This document shows positions 21,845 through 43,356 of a stretch of DNA of 64,000 nucleotides, piece after piece. Each line of letters starts with the position of its first letter. The first letter of the stretch is position 1. The stretch is from positions 868,001 to 932,000 of the forward strand of contig NZ_CM004509.1 of the NCBI RefSeq assembly GCF_001693435.1. The letters run 5' to 3'. Source of the DNA: Gilliamella sp. wkB7. GTDB taxonomy: Bacteria > Pseudomonadota > Gammaproteobacteria > Enterobacterales > Orbaceae. The position numbers and the translations under genes are program-made. Under the pieces are notes generated by a model, which was not told the origin of the DNA, searched no databases, and was given only the letters and a program-made list of their open reading frames with translations.

Positions 21845-21932
21845 GGAAGTGTGGCTGAGCGGTTGAAAGCACCGGTCTTGAAAACCGGCGAGGGGCGACC
21901 CTCCCAGAGTTCGAATCTCTGCGCTTCCGCCA
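21845..21932 (+). tRNA. serT: tRNA-Ser (anticodon UGA)
   Basis: This 88-base class II tRNA has acceptor GGAAGTG paired with CGCTTCC, an anticodon stem ACCGG/CCGGC around CTTGAAA (anticodon TGA, reads UCA-family serine codons), a long variable arm, the T-loop TTCGAATC and an encoded CCA. It is nearly identical to enterobacterial tRNA-Ser(UGA). Its 3' end is the integration target of the element that follows. Confidence 0.97.
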
Positions 21933-22180: not shown

Positions 22181-23155
22181 ATGGCAAGGCTAATTGAACG
22201 TTATGCCGAATTAGTTCAACAATTTCCTGCTTCAAAGAGTCATCATCATGTGTATTTGGGGGGAATTCTTGAAAATGGACTAGAAATCATGGCATATGCA
22301 TTGAATCAATCTGTCAAAGAATGATAGTCAGGTAGAGCAGGAATCCATTACTGATAATGTTGCACAAGAAATGACAACCTTATTTACAGAACAAAATGCA
22401 CCCGATATACCCCATGAAGTTGAAACAGTAAAAACACCTAATAATTCACCGTCAGCCGATAGTTTAGAAGCGGTATTTGATTTACTTGAAATGAATGGCG
22501 AGAATGAACAACTGGAATCAGCAGATACAGTAAGTCAATTGTTTATTACTGAAATCAACCACAGTGAGCCCAAATTAATCATCGATAGCCAGCTAACTAA
22601 TCCTTTGAATGATTATTCATCAATGTTTCATGAACCAACTGAACCAACTGAACCAACTGAACCAACTGAACCAACTGAACCAACTGAACCAACAAACAGT
22701 TTGATTGAATTTACCGATAAGGAAAAGAAAATAATGCAACAAATAGATGAAATAACACCTTCTGGTGAACATTTTATGCAGTGTTAAAAGAAGCTATCTT
22801 AATGCAAAAGCTCATCATCAACGAACCACAAGCACAAATTCATACGGTGGATGATACGATTTTTATTGTTACACCCGGTATTTTTATGCGTTACGTGATG
22901 GAGTTTCCTCAAGTACAACTGGTTGCTAAAACTGAAAAAACACCTGTCTGGCGATATATGCAAAAAGCGTTTGAAAAGCTTAGATATCATAAACGTAAAG
23001 ATGATAGTTACAGCATTTGGACATGTGCGTTAGAAGGCCCCAAAAGCACTAAAAAAGTACATGGTTATCTCTTTAATGACCCGACAATACTCATTCCTGA
23101 CATTGTTTATAACAATCCTTATTTGAAAATTTTTTTGAATAATCAAACTTCATAA
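22181..23155 (+). pseudogene. Collapsed MobH/TraI-type conjugative relaxase
   Basis: ATG 22181 starts a 47-codon piece, 'MARLIERYAELVQQFPASKS' then 'HHHVYLGGILENGLEIM', matching the 3H N-terminal domain of MobH/TraI relaxases. The catalytic middle is gone. From about 22320 another frame carries an acidic linker with a Glu-Pro-Thr repeat, ending 'ITPSGEHFMQ'. A one-base deletion at about 22782 moves to the next frame, which continues 'LKEAILMQKLIINEPQAQIH' to 'NNPYLKI', the DUF1528-type C-terminal domain. Restoring one base would join the two frames. This is a remnant of conjugation machinery. Confidence 0.75.
22632..22694 (+). repeat. Seven 9-bp tandem repeats (GAACCAACT) encoding Glu-Pro-Thr
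   Basis: Six exact copies of GAACCAACT plus one copy with a changed last base run head to tail inside the relaxase linker and encode (EPT)n. They remain in phase with the reading frame. Such arrays change length by slippage. Confidence 0.9.
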
Positions 23156-31556: not shown

Positions 31557-31814
31557 TTGGGTATTAATTTCAGGGGTTATCTATTGTGGAAAAGATTACA
31601 GGATGTAATTGATATACTCGACTCCCCTACAACACTGACAAAATTAGCCAGTGATATGGGATTTTCTGATTCGGCTCATTTTAGCAGAACATGTTTATCT
31701 AGTTTGGGGCTGAGACCATCACAACTCAAACGAGCTTTAATAATTGATAATAAAGACACTATATACGGAAAACATTACTGTTTGTACAGCGTATTTCAGG
31801 CATTACATACCTAA
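31557..31814 (+). pseudogene. C-terminal half of an AraC-family regulator
   Basis: 'FRGYLLWKRLQDVIDILDSP' and 'LTKLASDMGFSDSAHFSRTC' followed by 'GLRPSQLKR' are the two helix-turn-helix motifs of AraC regulators. The effector domain is missing, and nothing like it is found in 31359-31556, so this is a truncated copy. It may once have controlled the adjacent efflux genes. Confidence 0.6.
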
Positions 31815-32017: not shown

Positions 32018-32681
32018 TTACGTATGTTTCCTTTTTTGATCAGGATTGGCTTGTCGCCATTGTGCTGCTGTCATACCAAATAAAGCTATATTCAGTAAGT
32101 CTGCTTCACTGGCATACACTTTCCTTGTCTGTGCATTTGTTAATTGTATCGGAATCAAGTGTTCTTTAATGGCATCTGTATGTATGCGGTAGTTGACCTT
32201 TGCCAAAGTACGTTGGAAATTCCATTCCAGTAACATTACTTTGGCTTCTTCATCTTTAAATCTTTGAAATTCTTTAATTAGATAAAGCTTGAATTCAGGG
32301 CTGAGCCATGAGCCGAACTCAAAAGCAATATCTTTATAGGCATAAGTGCCACCGTAACGACCTGCCTTGGCTTGTAGGTCAATAGCTCCGGTGAGATCAC
32401 CCCATTTCTTAGCAGAGAGATAGAAACTGTTTCGACCTGCTTCATTTTTAATTCCCTCAAATTCGAGGGAATTAAAACAGCAGTTATTAATTTTTTCCCA
32501 TACACCTAAAAATAGTAATGTGTCTTTATTTTTCAGCCATTGCTCAATTAAAGCACTACCACCCTCAAAGTTTTTTACCATATCAGTCAGTGAAATATAA
32601 TCTTGCTCATGATTGTTTGTAATCGTAACGGTGTTCCTTGCACCACAATACTAAGGCTTTTCTTGGTGTTTCCAATTGGCA
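32018..32681 (-). pseudogene. KilA-N domain protein with disrupted 5' end
   Basis: An intact 187-codon frame from 32581 reads 'ALIEQWLKNKDTLLFLGVWE', 'GRNSFYLSAKKW' and 'YAYKDIAFEFGSWLSPEFKL', the KilA-N DNA-binding domain of phage and plasmid proteins. Upstream the frame stays open as 'NTVTITNNHEQDYISLTDM', while the expected preceding residues ('SLSIVVQGT') are in another frame, implying a one-base indel near 32635. It may still be translated from ATG 32581, but lacks the N-terminal strand. It lies just inside the right end of the element. Confidence 0.6.
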
Positions 32682-33318: not shown

Positions 33319-33992
33319 ATGGATATAAAACTCGGTAAAAACGATAAACGTTATATAAAAGGCACGAATGATGTTTATAATATCATGAAGAATGTGCTAT
33401 TACGTGACAATAAAATAGACCTAGAAAAAGAGTATTTCTAGATTATTGGCATGAATCTAGCGGGTTATATTTTTTATATTGAACACTTTGCCTTAGAGTC
33501 TTATAAATCAGTTGATGTTGAACCAATGAAGGGGTTCCGTGTAGCTGCCATGAAAAATGCTTGTCGAGTTATTACCGTAAATAATCATCCCTCAGAACGA
33601 TTAGCACCCTCTGTACCCGATGAAGATATCATAGATCGAATAATCCAAGTAGGGCATATATTAAATATAGAATTTGTAGACCACTTGATAATATCCCCAG
33701 TATCTTATACAAGCTCTCGGTATATTGATTTAATGGATGAGTTGGAAAAAAGCCCTAAATATGTGTCGACTTATCAGGTAGTGGAGTAGATTAGAAAGAA
33801 AAAAAGCGGATTGCTAAAGAAAGGTTAGAATTATAGAAAAACAAGACAAAATCTGTTCAAGATAAGGCAAAGGAAGCTAGAGAACAATCTAAAATATTAG
33901 CTTTGCTTGAAAAAGGTGTTAAAGTAGAAAATATCGCTAATATTTTAGATATAACACCGAAAACTGTTGAAATTATTATTAATAAAAAATAA
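33319..33992 (+). pseudogene. JAB/RadC-like protein interrupted by an in-frame TAG
   Basis: ATG 33319 opens 'DIKLGKNDKRYIKGTNDVYN' and runs to TAG 33439-33441. The same frame then continues 'IIGMNLAGYIFYIEHFALES', 'EPMKGFRVAAMKNACRVITV', 'NNHPSERLAPSVPDEDIIDR' and 'NIEFVDHLIIS' to 33789. This is the JAB/MPN fold of RadC relatives, where a Trp is usual at the stop position. The canonical HxH is altered to NNH. In another frame a tail 'ALLEKGVKVENIANIL' to 33992 looks like its helical C-terminus. So one nonsense codon and one frameshift. Confidence 0.6.
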
Positions 33993-34316: not shown

Positions 34317-35267
34317 ATGGATAGATTAGAAAATGCAATAGATAGATTATTTATTCAATCAAAAGGAGAAATAAAATCTCGTATTGAGGAGGTATCCTTT
34401 TGTATTGATATTCCAGAAACTCAAGCAAAAGGTTATTGCTATTGCCTAAAAGTTGATGCTAATGGAAATTTGCGATTAATGGATTTGATCGAATTTATAG
34501 ATACGAAGATTGTTGAGTACGCAATTCCTAAAAAAGAAATTGATGAAGCTAGACAATATTTTAATGAAACACAATCACCATCAAAAGTAGAGCAGCTTAA
34601 GAAAAAAGCTAAAGGTCTTTTTACCAACTTAGAAAAAACTGGAGAAGGTGGTGAAATTTTACTCTATATTCTTATTCAAGAATTTTTACAACTACCTCAA
34701 TTGATTAGTAAGATGTCTTTAAAAACTTCTGGACAACTGCACTATCAAGGGGCTGATGGAGTACACATTAAATATGATACTTCTTCGAAATGCTTAAATT
34801 TATATTGGGCAGAAGCCAAGATGTATTCAAAATTTAGTGATGCTATTACAAAGTGTTTTGAAAGTATTAATGGGTTTTTATTAAATTCTCAAGGGTATAA
34901 ATCTATTCAAGAAAGAGATTTACAGCTAATTACATCTAATATTCATGCTAATGTAAATGATAAAAATTTAGAAAGTATTTTAGTCAGGTATTTTGATAAA
35001 GATGATGATCTTTCGAATAATCTTGTATATAAAGCCGTGTGTTTTATAGGTTTTGATTATAAAAAATACCCATTAAGGGATGATTTGACTAATACTACAG
35101 AAGATATAAAAAAGGAAATATTAAAAACACATAATAAATGGTATAGAAGTTTAAGTAATAAAATCAGGAAGCATATAAACCTTGAGAAAAAAGAGATACA
35201 TGTTTTTTTATTACCATTCCCATCAGTTGAAGAATTTAGAAAATACTACTTGGAAATATTAGATTAA
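34317..35267 (+). CDS. hamA: Hachiman defense protein HamA (DUF1837 nuclease)
   Basis: HamA is the effector of the Hachiman anti-phage system, a PD-(D/E)xK-like nuclease held in check by the helicase HamB. This 316-residue protein has 'GEGGEILLYILIQEFLQLPQ' near 108, 'GADGVHIKYD' near 146 and 'LYWAEAKMY' near 162: the Glu, Asp and E-x-K of the nuclease core, which are also the DUF1837 signature. The start is ATG 34317 (TTG 34284 possible; no clear ribosome binding site for either). Its TAA overlaps the original hamB ATG by one base (TAATG). The call is from motifs plus the partner gene. Confidence 0.82.
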   Translation: MDRLENAIDRLFIQSKGEIKSRIEEVSFCIDIPETQAKGYCYCLKVDANGNLRLMDLIEFIDTKIVEYAIPKKEIDEARQYFNETQSPSKVEQLKKKAKGLFTNLEKTGEGGEILLYILIQEFLQLPQLISKMSLKTSGQLHYQGADGVHIKYDTSSKCLNLYWAEAKMYSKFSDAITKCFESINGFLLNSQGYKSIQERDLQLITSNIHANVNDKNLESILVRYFDKDDDLSNNLVYKAVCFIGFDYKKYPLRDDLTNTTEDIKKEILKTHNKWYRSLSNKIRKHINLEKKEIHVFLLPFPSVEEFRKYYLEILD

Positions 35268-35380
35268 TGCTTGCAGAAAAAGTTTATAATTTGAGAAGCT
35301 TTAGGAGACAGTATGATGCACTTCTTGTTTTGTCTGTTTGCGATACAATACCCAATTTAATATGGGAGAATGAAAAGTAG
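35267..35380 (+). pseudogene. hamB: 5' part of hamB, cut off by an in-frame TAG
   Basis: The ATG at 35267 overlaps the hamA stop (TAATG), the coupling expected for hamAB. It encodes 37 residues (MLAEKVYNLRSFRRQYDALL...) and then TAG at 35378-35380. Past the TAG the frame stays open with no further stop ('SLLKIIDWNNLLGIASILSY') all the way into the helicase, so a single C-to-T or similar change truncates HamB. Confidence 0.7.
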
Positions 35381-35542
35381 TCACTACTTAAAATAATTGA
35401 TTGGAATAATCTTTTAGGTATTGCATCTATATTAAGCTACTCTTCAAATAGCCTGCATCTAGATGCCGCATTAAGAATTTCACAAACTTGCTTAATCCAA
35501 GATACCTGTTCAGAAACCCAAAAGAGTGCATCGGCTATTATA

Positions 35543-37789
35543 TTGGATAATTTAACTAATAAATTAGCTATAAAAATGGCTATACATAAAGAATACCTGA
35601 ATAGTAATTATGAAGAAAATTATCCAATTACATTTAAGTTACAAAAAATAAGATCCGACTTCGAGAATTCTATTTTTATAAAAGATAAGTTAATATTTTT
35701 AAATAGATTCCAAAAACAAGTTTATGAAGCACACAAAAAGAATGAAATTATTAGTATTTCAGCTCCAACTTCTGCAGGAAAATCCTTTGTTCTTTGCAAT
35801 GTTCTTTTAGAAGAGTTGATTGAAGGTAATAAAAATATCATCTATTTAGTTCCTACTAGAGCGCTTATCAGTCAAGTAGAATTAGATTTAAGAAGCCTTA
35901 TCAAGGCTAATCAATTAGAAGAAAATATAAATATTTCAACAGTTCCTCCTCAAGAAGAGATAGAAATTAATAAATCAAATGTATTTATCTTTACACAAGA
36001 AAGATTACATTGGTTTTTAATTGAAAATAAATCCATTTCTTTACATTTACTTATTATAGATGAGGCTCATAAAATAGAGGATAAAAATAGAGGTATATTA
36101 TTGCAACAAAAACTCGAAGAAACAGTTAGGTATAACCCCAAAATTAAAGTGTATTTTTCTAGTCCTTATACTTCCAATCCTGAAATATTACTGGAAAATG
36201 TTTTAAGTGATGGTAAAAAGAATATCGTTAACACACAGTTCCTAGCTGTTAATCAAAATTTAATTTATGCAACACAGATCCCTAGAAAATTAAAAGAATG
36301 GCAGTTAACCATTTGTACTACTGATAAAACTTTACCTATAGGGAAACTTATTTTGGAACATATACCTTCGACAGAGTTACATAAGATTGTTCTTCTTTCG
36401 GAAAGATTTTCTGATCAGGATAGTGGTAATTTAATATATTGTAATGGAGCTGCGGATGCTGAAAAAATATCGTTATTATTGTTTGACCTACTAGAACAAT
36501 CATCAATTTCATCTGAAATAACAGAGCTTATAACTCTTGTAAAAGAAGCTATTCATCCTAATTATGCTCTTGCTACAGTATTACAGAAAGGGATTGCCTT
36601 TCATTATGGAAATATGCCGTTGTTAATAAGGCAGGAAATAGAACGACTTTTTTCAAATGGAAATATTAAATACCTTGTATGCACATCAACCCTTTTAGAA
36701 GGGGTAAATTTACCTGCAAAATCGATTTTTATGAAAAAACCCACTAGAGGTAAAAATAACCCATTAAATGAAAATGATTTTTGGAATTTAGCAGGGCGGG
36801 CAGGAAGGTGGGGAAAAGAATTTAGTGGCAATATTATTTGTATTGAACCTGACTCATGGAAAATAGAGCCGAATCCGAATAAATCAAAACAAATAATCAA
36901 ACGAGCACTAAATATTGTTGAAGAAAATGGTGAAGAGCTTTTAAATTTTATTTCAGATAAAGCTCCAAGAAAAGATGCTAATTCAAGGCAGGATTTAGAA
37001 GTCGCATTCGGCTATTATTATATTAAATACATTTTAAATAAAGAAACTTTCCCTCAAACATCTTTTCATGAAAAATTACTTCCAAAATTGCAATATATTA
37101 GTTCTACAATTGAGTTACCTTCTTATATTATTAAGAGAAATCCTGGAATTTCGCCTATAGCTCAACAATCGCTACTCGACTATTTTAAAAGTAATATAGA
37201 TAGAATTGAAGAAGTTATCCCTGTTTATCCTAATGATGTAAATGCTCTCGAAGAATATACAAGGTTAATAGGTCGAATCGGTAAAACGATTTCTGAATAT
37301 CCAAAGCAATTAAACCAATCTAGAGCTTTACTTGTTATTAATTGGATGACAGGAAAACCCTTGTCATACCTAATTAAAAAAAGTTATGAATCTTATCAAA
37401 AAAATCCTAAATACAATAAGACAAAAACTCTCCCAGTAGTTATTAGAGAGGTTATGGACAATATAGAAAAGTTTGTAAGATTTAAATTTGCAAAAGATTC
37501 TAGTTGTTATATTGACATATTAAGATATTTTTTAGAAATTAATAAGAGATACGATTTATTAGAAAATATACCGCAGTTAAATTTATGGTTAGAATTCGGT
37601 GTTTCTCAAAAAACACATCTATCGTTGTTATCTTTAGGATTGAGTCGTAATACAGTTATTGTGCTGACAGATTATATAGTTAATACTCAAATGTCCAAAA
37701 ATGAGAGCTTGGATTGGATTAAAAGACAAGACTTAGACCAATTAGACATATCTTCAATTATTATTGAAGACATAAAAAAAATTTTATAA
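35543..37789 (+). CDS. hamB: Hachiman helicase HamB, intact frame downstream of the TAG
   Basis: This superfamily 2 DExH helicase senses DNA damage or phage DNA and releases HamA. Counting from the original ATG 35267 the protein would have 840 residues: Walker A 'SAPTSAGKSF' near 166, 'LLIIDEAHKIED' (DEAH) near 262, 'VCTSTLLEGVNLPAKSIFM' near 470, and motif VI 'NLAGRAGRWGKEFSG' near 507. The frame has been open since the TAG at 35378. TTG 35543 is merely the first possible start that keeps 748 residues; reinitiation there is uncertain. A stem-loop follows the stop. Confidence 0.8.
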   Translation: MDNLTNKLAIKMAIHKEYLNSNYEENYPITFKLQKIRSDFENSIFIKDKLIFLNRFQKQVYEAHKKNEIISISAPTSAGKSFVLCNVLLEELIEGNKNIIYLVPTRALISQVELDLRSLIKANQLEENINISTVPPQEEIEINKSNVFIFTQERLHWFLIENKSISLHLLIIDEAHKIEDKNRGILLQQKLEETVRYNPKIKVYFSSPYTSNPEILLENVLSDGKKNIVNTQFLAVNQNLIYATQIPRKLKEWQLTICTTDKTLPIGKLILEHIPSTELHKIVLLSERFSDQDSGNLIYCNGAADAEKISLLLFDLLEQSSISSEITELITLVKEAIHPNYALATVLQKGIAFHYGNMPLLIRQEIERLFSNGNIKYLVCTSTLLEGVNLPAKSIFMKKPTRGKNNPLNENDFWNLAGRAGRWGKEFSGNIICIEPDSWKIEPNPNKSKQIIKRALNIVEENGEELLNFISDKAPRKDANSRQDLEVAFGYYYIKYILNKETFPQTSFHEKLLPKLQYISSTIELPSYIIKRNPGISPIAQQSLLDYFKSNIDRIEEVIPVYPNDVNALEEYTRLIGRIGKTISEYPKQLNQSRALLVINWMTGKPLSYLIKKSYESYQKNPKYNKTKTLPVVIREVMDNIEKFVRFKFAKDSSCYIDILRYFLEINKRYDLLENIPQLNLWLEFGVSQKTHLSLLSLGLSRNTVIVLTDYIVNTQMSKNESLDWIKRQDLDQLDISSIIIEDIKKIL

Positions 37790-38617: not shown

Positions 38618-38845
38618 CGTTCAAAGACAATTTACGCCAAATATAGCAATAAATCGAGAGGTCTATTCGCTATTTCGTTATTGACTCGACAGACCTTAAA
38701 GTCTTTGGTAAATGTAAATTAAAAAAAGCAAAACATGGCGCAAATCACACTTAGCTATTGATGTGGATACTCACGAAGCTATTAGTACACAAGCCAGCCT
38801 TGTCAATGTTGGCGATAAGGAAGTGCAAAGTCTTGTTGGAGCAAA
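38618..38845 (+). pseudogene. IS5-family transposase relic
   Basis: 'RSKTIYAKYSNKSRG' is followed, after frame changes, by 'STDLKVFGKCKLKKAKHG' and 'HLAIDVDTHEAISTQASLVN'. This is the order DSTGLKVxGxGEWK...KHG...WRKLHLAID of IS5-type DDE transposases. Several frameshifts are needed and no inverted ends are seen. The ribosome binding site of the following acetyltransferase lies in its last bases. Confidence 0.65.
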
Positions 38846-38850
38846 TCATA

Positions 38851-39351
38851 ATGAAAATAGGAAACACGTTGAGTAATGTTGCATCTAAAATCGAAGTAAA
38901 ACCATACTCACCACTCTATGCAACTGAAATATGCGATTTGTTTCATTCGACTATTCATGCTATTGATACCGATATTTATAGCAAAGCAGAGCAAGAAGCA
39001 TGGTGCCCAACACCACCAGATTATCAGATGTGGTTAAAACGTTTAGATAACACTCAGCCTTGGATGGCTATCTTTGGCTCACGTCTTGCGGGGTTTATTG
39101 AACTTAGAGATAATGGTTACATAGACTGTCTATACGTACATCCTGACTTTCAAAAGCGTGGCATAGCTAGAAAACTCTATAACCATGTTCTTGACTTGGC
39201 CTACCAGAAAAAGTTTTCACAATTAAGTGTGGATGCGTCAAAAGTGGCCATGCCAATTTTCAAAAAATGGGGTTTTAAAATAAAGTGGGCTAATAAAATA
39301 TACAGAAAAAATCAGGTACTGATAAATTACCATATGTATAGACCACTTTGA
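38851..39351 (+). CDS. GNAT-family N-acetyltransferase
   Basis: This 166-residue acetyltransferase shows the acetyl-CoA loop 'IDCLYVHPDFQKRGIARKLY' near 94 (R/Q-x-x-G-x-G/A), preceded by 'GFIELRDNG' and followed by 'LSVDASKVAMPIFKKWGFK'. It resembles the small YafP/ElaA-like group that acetylates small molecules. ATG 38851 with TTGGAG upstream is chosen; the frame extends 5' into the IS5 relic and that part is transposase-derived. It is flanked by insertion-sequence scraps and was probably brought in by them. Substrate unknown. Confidence 0.82.
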   Translation: MKIGNTLSNVASKIEVKPYSPLYATEICDLFHSTIHAIDTDIYSKAEQEAWCPTPPDYQMWLKRLDNTQPWMAIFGSRLAGFIELRDNGYIDCLYVHPDFQKRGIARKLYNHVLDLAYQKKFSQLSVDASKVAMPIFKKWGFKIKWANKIYRKNQVLINYHMYRPL

Positions 39352-39812: not shown

Positions 39813-40271
39813 CTAAATTTGTCCACTGCACTTTTGCCATTCCAGCGTAGCATCAATTTCAACACCGCCAGAGCGTACCGGCTCTACTGAAGACAGAAAG
39901 AGACGGTCACCTTCAATGCGTGCTCGGCGAAGCTGGCGTTGACCGCACCAGTTTGGGAAAAGCGACACATCCATGCCGTGAATGATTGTTCCGGGCTCCT
40001 CGCCCAGTTTCCATGGACCACTATAGGCGATATATGTGGTTGCTTCCGCCTTGAACTCCTCAGGAGAAGCGACAAACCAGTCTCCCGATACAAAATGAGA
40101 GCGATCAGGGGCACAAAGTTGTGCCGACATGTAGCCATCTGGTGTGTAAAGGATCAATCCTTGGGGGCGATCGGTCATAGGTTGGCGTATTGGAGATCCG
40201 TCTCGCGGTCGTTCAATGTAGCTTACAAGGCGCCATGCCCCGATTAATTGTTCACGAAGAATATGAGTCAT
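39813..40271 (-). CDS. Lipocalin-like domain protein
   Basis: This 152-residue soluble protein begins 'LREQLIGAWRLVSYIERPRD', the G-x-W opening of the lipocalin-like (Lipocalin_5) family, with 'GLILYTPDGYMSAQLCAP' following, as in fungal and proteobacterial secondary-metabolism proteins. The start is ATG 40271 behind GAGGGA. It lies 48 bases downstream of the CocE-type hydrolase on the same strand. GC is clearly higher than in the surroundings, so the pair was probably acquired together. It may bind or modify the hydrolase's product. Confidence 0.8.
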   Translation of the reverse strand: MTHILREQLIGAWRLVSYIERPRDGSPIRQPMTDRPQGLILYTPDGYMSAQLCAPDRSHFVSGDWFVASPEEFKAEATTYIAYSGPWKLGEEPGTIIHGMDVSLFPNWCGQRQLRRARIEGDRLFLSSVEPVRSGGVEIDATLEWQKCSGQI

Positions 40272-40319
40272 CAAAAATTCCCTCTTTTTTAGGCATAAAG
40301 CCCGTCAGTATTGGTCGAT

Positions 40320-42344
40320 TTAAAGTTTCTTCAATGGTACAAGGAGATAACTATCACACTCAGCACCAAAATGAATATGATGAACGCCCTTGTTACGGGA
40401 CGGTGGCATCACTTCTTGAGACTTGGCCCATGCTGGCATCGTTGCTGGTCCACCGCCTGCCAGATGGATCATCTCTGGCTCCGTACCAGGTTCAAACGTA
40501 AAGCTGTTCTTTGGCAGATCAATCGCCGCCTGTCCGAAAGGTAAGTTGACAGGATCATTACGGAAAGGTTCGATCGTAAGTTTTAACTGTTCACCTGGAT
40601 GAAACTTCATTGCCAACGGCCAGATGCCTATATCAACAGGTACCACTTCTTTAGGTGAAAGTCGCTGTTCACCTTGTAGAAGAAGTACTGGATCTATCTC
40701 AGTTGAAAGGACAGGATCCAGAGCACGACGTGAAACCCTCAGATAACTTGCCGTTCGGGTCGGTGCTGCGCCACCGGGATATGTCTCGCGAATAATGGCT
40801 CGTCCCGCAGAATCCACTTTCTCTAAATAAATAGTAAGATCCATGTCATCCGCCCCATCGGCTTCGACAAATAAACGCAGCTTGCTATAGCCAATAAGCT
40901 CCGCCTCATGATCAATCGGCAATAAGAATGTAGCTGAACCACCATTCACATTGTAAGAAACGACACCCGATTTCTTGGATGACGTGGTTGACAGTGAAGA
41001 AACATCAACTATATGAAGCTTGATATGATCATAACCATTTGGAGGAAACGCCTCGACAATACGATCAACCTCATCCTTGTGCCCGGGATCGAGAACCGAG
41101 ATACGAACTTTTGGGGTTTCTTCCCATCCATTTTTCTCGCCTTTCAGATATCGATCGAAAAAGCGTTTAAGTTCAGCCTGATGAGCAGGATCGTAGAAAT
41201 CCGGCCACTCTTGTTTATTATGAACACGTAGCCATTTCTCTTTGGATGAAATTCTGCGCCACGCGTCAAACGTTCCATATGTATGAGCGACATTATCGTA
41301 GCTAGCAACGATATAGGCTGGGACTTCGATGCGCTCAAGGCGCGCAGCTTTATCTGCCCAGTAAGGCGTCATATCCTGTTCAGTCGCAGCCATACGCGGC
41401 ATATCTTCCAAAAGGTGCTCACCACCAAAGCTTTGGATTAGCGCTTCTGGGAATGCGGTGCGAGGGATGCCACCACGGAGAAAATCACCGCGGGCAATAT
41501 CGGTACAACCCTCCCATGGCGCTATGGCAGCTAAGTGCGGTGGTTGTTCTGCTGCGATAAACCACTGCGAAACACACAGCCAGCTATTACCAGCCATACC
41601 TACTTTACCATTAGACCAACCTTGACTTGCCACCCAGTCAATTACGTCACAGCCGTCTTCGGCGGTCTGCCGACCCCAGCCGACAATATTTCCACCAGAA
41701 CGATAAGCACCACGAATGTCGGGATTGATCACGGCGTAACCAGCATTGACCCAGTAAGCTGGATCAGGACCTTCCCATTTCATCATTTCAGACGTCATAC
41801 TTAATTTGACGCCATAACGTTCTGGAATTTCGTCCAGCCATTGGCCACCAATCTCTTTGCCATATGGACTCCAAGCGAGAATTGCCGGATGGACAGCATC
41901 GCCGACAGGACGGAAAACATCAGTATAAATCACCGTACCATCACGTAGTGTGATCGCGAGATCGCGCTCAAACATAATGTCACAAGGTAATGGCATCGCA
42001 CCCTCACGTCGAATGGTTCCTTTACGCAGAATTTCTGATCCAGGCTTGAAACCGGGATAACGCACTCGTGGTGCATCCAAAGGTAATGGACGACGGAAGT
42101 AGGTCGGATAAGCATCGTTGCCATAGATTCGAAGAGGCAGCTTTTCGGAAAAAGGAACTTCATTTTTTGATGACGCTGCAAACGCCGAGTTAATTGGCTT
42201 TCCGATGAATGGCAAACCGAACTGACTGGCGGCAAGAGCCCCGCCGGCGATCCCCATTGCACTCAGGAAGCGTCGTCGGCTTATGGACTCGGTAGTATTG
42301 ATGCAAGGTAGATGTATTGTCGGAGACTGTTTTGATTTAGTCAT
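40320..42344 (-). CDS. Tat-exported CocE/NonD-family (S15-like) hydrolase
   Basis: This 674-residue secreted alpha/beta hydrolase has a twin-arginine signal 'SRRRFLSAMGIAGGALAAS' (residues about 22-40). The hydrolase domain contains 'TDVFRPVGDAVHPAILAWSP', the nucleophile elbow 'GKVGMAGNSWLCVSQW' (Gly-Asn-Ser-Trp) near 248, and the C-terminal histidine region. A jelly-roll domain follows ('FHPGEQLKLTIEPFRNDP'), as in X-Pro dipeptidyl peptidases and cocaine esterase. Substrates could be esters or peptides. It is divergently transcribed from a LysR gene, and its base composition is foreign to this genome. Confidence 0.9.
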   Translation of the reverse strand: MTKSKQSPTIHLPCINTTESISRRRFLSAMGIAGGALAASQFGLPFIGKPINSAFAASSKNEVPFSEKLPLRIYGNDAYPTYFRRPLPLDAPRVRYPGFKPGSEILRKGTIRREGAMPLPCDIMFERDLAITLRDGTVIYTDVFRPVGDAVHPAILAWSPYGKEIGGQWLDEIPERYGVKLSMTSEMMKWEGPDPAYWVNAGYAVINPDIRGAYRSGGNIVGWGRQTAEDGCDVIDWVASQGWSNGKVGMAGNSWLCVSQWFIAAEQPPHLAAIAPWEGCTDIARGDFLRGGIPRTAFPEALIQSFGGEHLLEDMPRMAATEQDMTPYWADKAARLERIEVPAYIVASYDNVAHTYGTFDAWRRISSKEKWLRVHNKQEWPDFYDPAHQAELKRFFDRYLKGEKNGWEETPKVRISVLDPGHKDEVDRIVEAFPPNGYDHIKLHIVDVSSLSTTSSKKSGVVSYNVNGGSATFLLPIDHEAELIGYSKLRLFVEADGADDMDLTIYLEKVDSAGRAIIRETYPGGAAPTRTASYLRVSRRALDPVLSTEIDPVLLLQGEQRLSPKEVVPVDIGIWPLAMKFHPGEQLKLTIEPFRNDPVNLPFGQAAIDLPKNSFTFEPGTEPEMIHLAGGGPATMPAWAKSQEVMPPSRNKGVHHIHFGAECDSYLLVPLKKL

Positions 42345-42374
42345 AGCAGATCCTTTCTTTGGTTTCGGTTATTG

Positions 42375-42419
42375 TTGACAATAATAAAATTCGGTACTTA
42401 TAATGTCCAATGACATTAT
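42375..42419 (+). promoter_or_regulatory. LysR promoter with an overlapping 8-bp palindrome
   Basis: TTGACA (42375-42380), 18 bases, TATAAT (42399-42404) form a near-consensus promoter toward the LysR gene. ATAATGTC (42400-42407) and GACATTAT (42412-42419) make an inverted repeat over the -10 and start. It may be the regulator's own operator in the shared divergent region. Confidence 0.6.
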
Positions 42420-42447
42420 GTTCCCCCTGTAATTCCAAGAGGTAATA

Positions 42448-43356
42448 ATGGAACTCCGCCATCTGAAATCTTTCGTCGTACTGGCTGAGGAGCTGCATTT
42501 TGGAAGAGCGGCGAAGCGTCTGCACATCGTCCAGTCGGCACTTAGCAAGCAAATGCTGCTCCTTGAGGAATCCGTAGGATGCCGTTTACTCAATCGCAAT
42601 CGTCGAGGTGTGACGCTTAGCGAAGCGGGAAAGGTGTTCCTTGAAGAGGCAAATCAAGCTCTTGAACATGTTGAGCGCGCGATCGAAACTGCATGGCGCG
42701 TTAGCAAGGGGCTATTAGGACGTGTACGGATCGGCTATTCAGCCATCGCAGTTCATTCTGGTATTTTGACATCAGCCCTCACGCGGATCGAACACGCCAT
42801 GCCTGAGGTCGAAGTACTGCTACAACAAATTGAACCATGGGAACAAAATGAAAGGCTTATGACTGATAAGGTTGACTTCGTATTCGCTCCTGTCCTTGAC
42901 AACTATCAACAGACGCTTCGAGTGCACCATCTTACAAAATTGCCCGTAGTCGTAGGTATGTCGGTTCATCATGTACTTGCTTCCAAACCCATAATTGAAC
43001 TTGAAGACCTCAAGGAAGAAGTGTTTATCGAATTTGCCAATAGTGACGGTGAGGCTCTTGACGTAGTGAAAAGTCTTATTGGTCTTCATCCCCAAACAGT
43101 CATCGCAAAATCCGACCCGATCGCAGTCCTAGCACTTGTTCAAGCTCAGCGTGGCATCTGTGTGTTACCTACAGTACTTCAGCTACCAAATTTTCCACAG
43201 GTTACGTATAAACCTCTTACAACGAACTGCGCGGTTCTACTGTCACTTATCAGCCGACGAGATGGAAATGATCCTTTACTAAACAAGCTCAAAGAGATCT
43301 TGATTGCACCAACTATTTTAGCTCAAGATCACCCCAGATCGGTATTGATCAAGTAA
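42448..43356 (+). CDS. LysR-family transcriptional regulator
   Basis: This 302-residue LysR regulator has an N-terminal winged helix ('MELRHLKSFVVLAEELHFGR', 'AAKRLHIVQSALSKQMLLLE', residues 1-60) and a ligand-binding domain starting at 'GRVRIGYSAIAVHSGILTSA'. AAGAGG precedes the ATG. It is divergent from the CocE-type hydrolase across 103 bases and probably controls it and the lipocalin. GC content is like its neighbours in the acquired block. Confidence 0.92.
   Translation: MELRHLKSFVVLAEELHFGRAAKRLHIVQSALSKQMLLLEESVGCRLLNRNRRGVTLSEAGKVFLEEANQALEHVERAIETAWRVSKGLLGRVRIGYSAIAVHSGILTSALTRIEHAMPEVEVLLQQIEPWEQNERLMTDKVDFVFAPVLDNYQQTLRVHHLTKLPVVVGMSVHHVLASKPIIELEDLKEEVFIEFANSDGEALDVVKSLIGLHPQTVIAKSDPIAVLALVQAQRGICVLPTVLQLPNFPQVTYKPLTTNCAVLLSLISRRDGNDPLLNKLKEILIAPTILAQDHPRSVLIK

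Follow-up and report, generated by a model that had tools for sequence, protein, structure and literature searches.

The closest described relatives of the locus analysed here are Hachiman systems, two-gene defences that protect against phage and respond to DNA damage. In E. coli ECOR31 (Tuck et al., PMC12278908; PDB 8vx9, 8vxa and 8vxy), the sections of the report drawn on here describe a DUF1837 nuclease, HamA, followed by HamB, an SF2 Ski2-like helicase that carries a helical bundle at its N terminus. The same sections name the NAH as the HamA-binding part of HamB and conclude that HamA action requires HamB. According to them, mutants of the HamA-HamB interface are viable, yet undefended.

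A hamAB operon of this layout occupies positions 34317 to 37789 of the window, the whole stretch of 64,000 nucleotides of Gilliamella DNA that was analysed. RecD of the window agrees with this host, being 87% identical to a protein of unclassified Gilliamella and 95% to one other protein, with more Gilliamella matches at lower identity. Gilliamella is a commensal of the bee gut. We consider it likely that a Bacteroidota-type hamAB was acquired here, beside a variable site at a tRNA-Ser gene, and was recently inactivated by a nonsense mutation at codon 38 of hamB.

The first gene, hamA (34317..35267, forward strand, ATG at 34317 and TAA at 35265-35267), is intact and encodes a DUF1837/HamA effector nuclease of 316 residues, matching the PADLOC HamA1 profile at 8e-106 and the Pfam HamA profile (PF08878) at 9.8e-55. 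Its relatives are represented by 120 matches listed of 373, with the locus's own call excluded from the alignment. Among these 119 proteins 316 residues is the most frequent length (58/119), and the closest, among the matches listed, are 76% identical. The D ... E(x)K nuclease motif expected of a Hachiman HamA is present: E110, D147 and E166-x-K168 are all kept, and D147, E166 and K168 are near-invariant in the relatives. Across 75 near-invariant columns the protein deviates at none; by the same count 89 of the 119 relatives also deviate at none, 26 at one, three at two and one at three. The cluster to which this HamA belongs (P0121) has two members, on one contig.

The two genes are adjacent in one operon and overlap by one base in TAATG at 35265-35269. 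From its ATG at 35267-35269, hamB is open for 37 codons (35267..35377, forward strand), is interrupted by an in-frame TAG as codon 38 (35378..35380), and is then open again for 802 codons to a TAA at 37787-37789 (35381..37789). An open frame of 802 codons would arise by chance, at the local composition, with a probability of about 3e-30. Downstream of the TAG the frame matches PADLOC HamB1 at 8.5e-271 as well as Pfam DEAD and Helicase_C, in keeping with an SF2 Ski2-like DExH helicase, and carries what we take to be motifs I (APTSAGKS), II (DEAH), V and VI (NLAGRAGR). The HamB1 match begins at profile position 46, far enough in for the 37 codons before the TAG to fit ahead of it. P0002, an intact relative of 840 residues, matches the locus from residue 1 to residue 840 at 76% identity, and this match crosses a single TAG and no second stop. 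The 37 codons therefore form the genuine start of hamB, as the alignment with 119 relatives also indicates, and the stop is unique in the frame. These results bear out what the sequence-only reading had proposed, namely a hamAB pair with a one-base overlap, a lone amber codon after 37 codons of hamB, and helicase motifs left intact behind it. In a Hachiman system, HamB is encoded as a single piece that includes the HamA-binding bundle at its N terminus; here the TAG lies within the predicted bundle. Because HamB is not encoded in one piece, we would class the locus, from its sequence, as a Hachiman operon that has decayed rather than as a functional Hachiman system.

A stop at this position would mean little if HamB proteins generally began further downstream, as the sequence-only reading allowed. 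The relatives speak mostly against it. We aligned 119 HamB relatives (120 proteins listed of 6174 matches, the locus's own call omitted), 113 of which have 834-848 residues. In 114 of the 119 the stop column holds a sense residue, of 11 kinds in all, and these same 114 begin no more than three residues from the homologous start; in six named relative loci the alignment to P0002 opens at its first residue. As a general rule, then, we reject a natural start beyond the TAG. The remaining five have no residue at this column since their gene calls, known as protein sequences only, begin later. P0019 opens on a residue that is not a start, as at a contig end. P0034 is called from the Met homologous to codon 104, the only such case in the 119, and codon 49 is where the calls for P0072, P0077 and P0080 open. 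Over 788 residues, P0072 and P0077 show 100% identity to the full-length P0049 and P0069, and P0080 differs little, with 99.9% identity to P0069. The shortened calls P0034, P0072, P0077 and P0080 could possibly reflect recurrent N-terminal lesions or edge effects.

Genome searches, made in samples of larger groups, place the stop at this locus alone. Within the class to which Gilliamella belongs, hamB was found at E <= 1e-20 in five of 369 sampled genomes, the present one included, and solely the present locus carries the stop. In a sample of the order of a Bacteroidales MAG (G035), hamB was found at E <= 1e-100 in one of 393 genomes, the seed itself, with no stop. The sampled order of a Flavobacterium genome (G038) gave hamB in 3 of 395, seed included, and no stop in any, among them L077 and L078 on the minus strand.

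The rest of the operon shows little wear. The present HamB deviates at one of 211 columns whose invariance among the relatives is 99% or more; comparison relatives (21 of the 119, with a nearest neighbour at no more than 82% identity) deviate at 0-4. Together with the absence of deviations in HamA, this argues that the lesion is recent and has no other visible damage beside it. The absence of a second stop sets an upper limit on neutral divergence since inactivation, at about 0.02 substitutions per site at the 95% level (simple substitution models, counting stops only). Fresh inactivation had been one of three options in the sequence-only reading, and the single stop and unbroken remainder favour it. 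A point against inactivation is that the 802 codons past the stop seem fully constrained, as in a working gene; from these comparisons, the lesion looks young, or else the frame is still under selection.

Three other explanations of the TAG each have a small probability in our estimation. The first is an error of sequencing or assembly, the true codon being a sense codon and the system intact. One stop in a gene that is otherwise undamaged is what such an error would leave, and yet the genome is a single contig of 2.90 Mb listed as 99.99% complete, and the preserved frame means that the error could not be an indel. The database call for the truncated protein, P0001, of 737 residues, moreover comprises nine member sequences on five contigs, which may or may not be independent of one another. 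This cluster size may mean that the TAG allele persists in several strains, a point to be set against simple inactivation as well. We regard an error as improbable.

A second explanation is that ribosomes re-enter downstream and make a shortened helicase that retains some function. The first ATG, GTG or TTG past the stop is a TTG at codon 93 (35543..35545, forward strand) and the first in-frame ATG is codon 104 (35576..35578, forward strand), which would yield proteins of 748 and 737 residues, respectively. Both codons are in frame, the public call P0001 starts at the ATG, and the helicase core sits downstream of both, the 748-residue frame still matching HamB1 at 6.5e-256. The predicted ribosome-binding energy at the TTG is -2.4 kcal/mol, just 0.9 kcal/mol weaker than the -3.3 kcal/mol at the true hamB start. 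Against restart, the ATG has no ribosome-binding site that we could find, a measure that is not decisive since the hamA start has none by it either, and only P0034 of the 119 relatives is called, as a protein, from the homologous Met.

A further objection to restart is what its product would lack. The predicted fold of P0002 (mean pLDDT 87.9, from a 31-sequence alignment) has nine helices within residues 1-133, and a restart at codon 93 or 104 would drop five or six of them wholly and cut one more. Structural comparison of this model was judged by first and last aligned residues only, in 50 rows shown of 993 aligned chains. The alignments of the four Hachiman chains open at residue 1 or 7 of the model; among the other 46 chains, 42 align no earlier than residue 127, and the remaining four from 24-89. 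On the strength of this comparison, the region of residues 1-133 is most likely a HamB-specific N-terminal domain, the NAH of Tuck et al. A restarted protein would thus miss most of the predicted HamA-binding bundle, and we doubt that restart accounts for the locus.

The third explanation is read-through, in which near-cognate tRNAs pass the amber codon at a low rate, so that HamB is made at full length in small amounts and the Hachiman system is throttled. The stop column tolerates 11 kinds of residue in the relatives, so most inserted residues should be acceptable, and the apparent constraint on the frame past the TAG would fit. Read-through is nonetheless not favoured by the genome, which has RF1, and in which none of the 52 tRNA genes found (52 places from 150 scored of 226 candidates, all read by ARAGORN) has the anticodon CTA. 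Nor is there any other in-frame TAG in either gene, hamB having 35 Gln codons and hamA 13, and this leaves no sign of a source in which TAG was recoded. We think read-through unlikely to be the answer. Slightly less probable still, in our view, is that the amber codon serves as a tolerated throttle, rare read-through giving traces of full-length HamB, an excess of HamA and few complexes. If this were true, the locus would be a low-cost Hachiman with less autoimmunity, and ongoing selection would explain why the frame past the TAG looks constrained. Recoding of TAG as a sense codon is rejected, given the presence of RF1, the lack of a CTA anticodon among the 52 tRNA genes, and the lack of further in-frame TAG codons.

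Inactivation by the nonsense mutation, the reading that we prefer, leaves an intact hamA beside a broken hamB. The sequence-only reading had argued that HamA without its inhibitor should be toxic, and that HamB was therefore likely to retain partial function. This argument finds little to stand on. The published conclusion that HamA needs HamB weakens or removes the premise of a toxic lone HamA, and Aureicoccus marinus, one of the six named relative loci, provides a comparable arrangement, with a hamB frame broken at about codons 733-743 (L005:5884-8400) and an intact hamA beside it. The A. marinus break may stem from an error of sequencing, or it may be another such case in nature. There are counter-hints in the same sections of PMC12278908, where HamB is said to constrain HamA, and strains with mutant HamB are reported to be more sensitive to mitomycin C and bleomycin than HamA mutants. 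Lone HamA may thus not be entirely harmless. Ectopic Hachiman as a whole is described there as mildly toxic. The parts of a further paper, PMC12799240, drawn on here concern mainly protease-HamA fusions.

We suggest the following course of events for the inactivated operon. Ribosomes coupled from hamA would halt after 37 codons of hamB, with no adequate restart, and any restarted product would be made without most of the bundle of N-terminal helices by which HamB holds HamA. On its own, HamA would be insoluble or never activated, so that defence would be lost and the cell would not be poisoned. Consistent with this course, hamA is probably silent. The allele would be young, and possibly maintained by drift or by the fitness cost of Hachiman.

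The origin of the operon appears to lie outside the genus. Among 35 Gilliamella genomes, 30 of them at least 90% complete and no more than 5% contaminated, hamA and hamB are each found in one, the present genome, and the 34 others are without them. The closest HamB relatives, among the matches listed, are 77% identical, and those listed relatives that carry a name belong to Bacteroidota, such as Alistipes, Prevotella, Dysgonomonas and Flavobacterium. A single HamB record is given as a Methanobrevibacter MAG in one source and as Bacteroidales in another. G+C content is 28% in hamA, 29% in hamB and 33.7% in the window. No relative was found in viral contigs, and a distant blastn search of plasmids returned one Bartonella record covering 7% of the query. 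The pattern of relatives points to horizontal acquisition from Bacteroidota.

The surroundings of the operon vary within the genus. A tRNA-Ser(tga) gene (21845..21932, forward strand) marks the left edge of the segment carrying hamAB that is missing beside the same tRNA in three relatives. The right flank holds a GNAT acetyltransferase gene (38758..39351, forward strand), which in these three relatives is inverted and lies 0.4-1.1 kb from the same tRNA-Ser. The distance from the end of the tRNA to the inverted GNAT segment is about 430 bases in G021 (L040), 1.1 kb in G019 (L039) and 0.9 kb in G023 (L041), so roughly 17 kb of the window is missing in each. These three come from 11 flank loci compared, of which the other eight do not show the tRNA-Ser inside the fetched stretch. 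Of the 35 genus genomes, 14, the present one included, contain matches to the downstream flank, several of them over short pieces only. An EmrAB-like efflux pair also lies between the tRNA-Ser and the GNAT gene, and the stretch past the tRNA looks like decayed mobile-element ground.

Several other features of the region may be recorded. A C-terminal fragment of a TraI-type relaxase lies at 22781-23155 (forward strand), between the tRNA-Ser and the GNAT gene, and fragments of an AraC-type regulator and of RadC are found at 31557-31814 and 33451-33789, both on the forward strand. A KilA-N protein encoded at 32018-32581 on the reverse strand matches PADLOC PDC-S22 at 2.3e-88, over profile positions 32-215 of 281 only, and judging from this match its gene is possibly a second, shortened defence gene of the region. 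Further right, at 39813-43356, is a block of high G+C content (48% at 40001-42000) with lipocalin-like, CocE/NonD hydrolase and LysR genes; a segment carried by enterobacterial plasmids of wastewater origin matches it at 83.5% identity.

If hamAB here is indeed inactivated, nature has provided a hamB-defective allele beside an undamaged hamA, in keeping with the published need of HamA for HamB. Narrow literature searches returned no report of an inactivated Hachiman system or of Hachiman in Gilliamella. Profile-based defence finders could count the locus as Hachiman, given the strength with which the 748-residue frame past the stop still matches HamB1. In other respects the locus is a defence operon, gained by horizontal transfer, that is decaying in a routine and ordinary way.

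Compared with known systems, the locus shares with ECOR31 the order of a DUF1837 nuclease and a Ski2-like helicase, and the predicted fold of P0002 aligns with ECOR31 HamB over 783-788 positions between residues 1 and 840. It differs in that identity to the solved HamB is only 16-17% and in that a stop breaks hamB at codon 38. The E. coli protein AbpB (PDB 8zue, deposited under the title Hachiman defense system) is 17% identical and is a separate, intact protein. The closest solved sequence to the present HamB, at 8.9e-54, is an 853-residue chain in PDB 9wh1, 9whk and 9whu, labelled 'DNA polymerase theta (Helicase domain only)', which may be an oddly named bacterial HamB-like protein. The nearest systems listed are the hamAB operons of Bacteroidota (among them Alistipes, Dysgonomonas and Flavobacterium), with identities of up to 77% in HamB and 76% in HamA; in these operons, unlike the present one, hamB is intact, and their hosts belong to a phylum other than that of Gilliamella.
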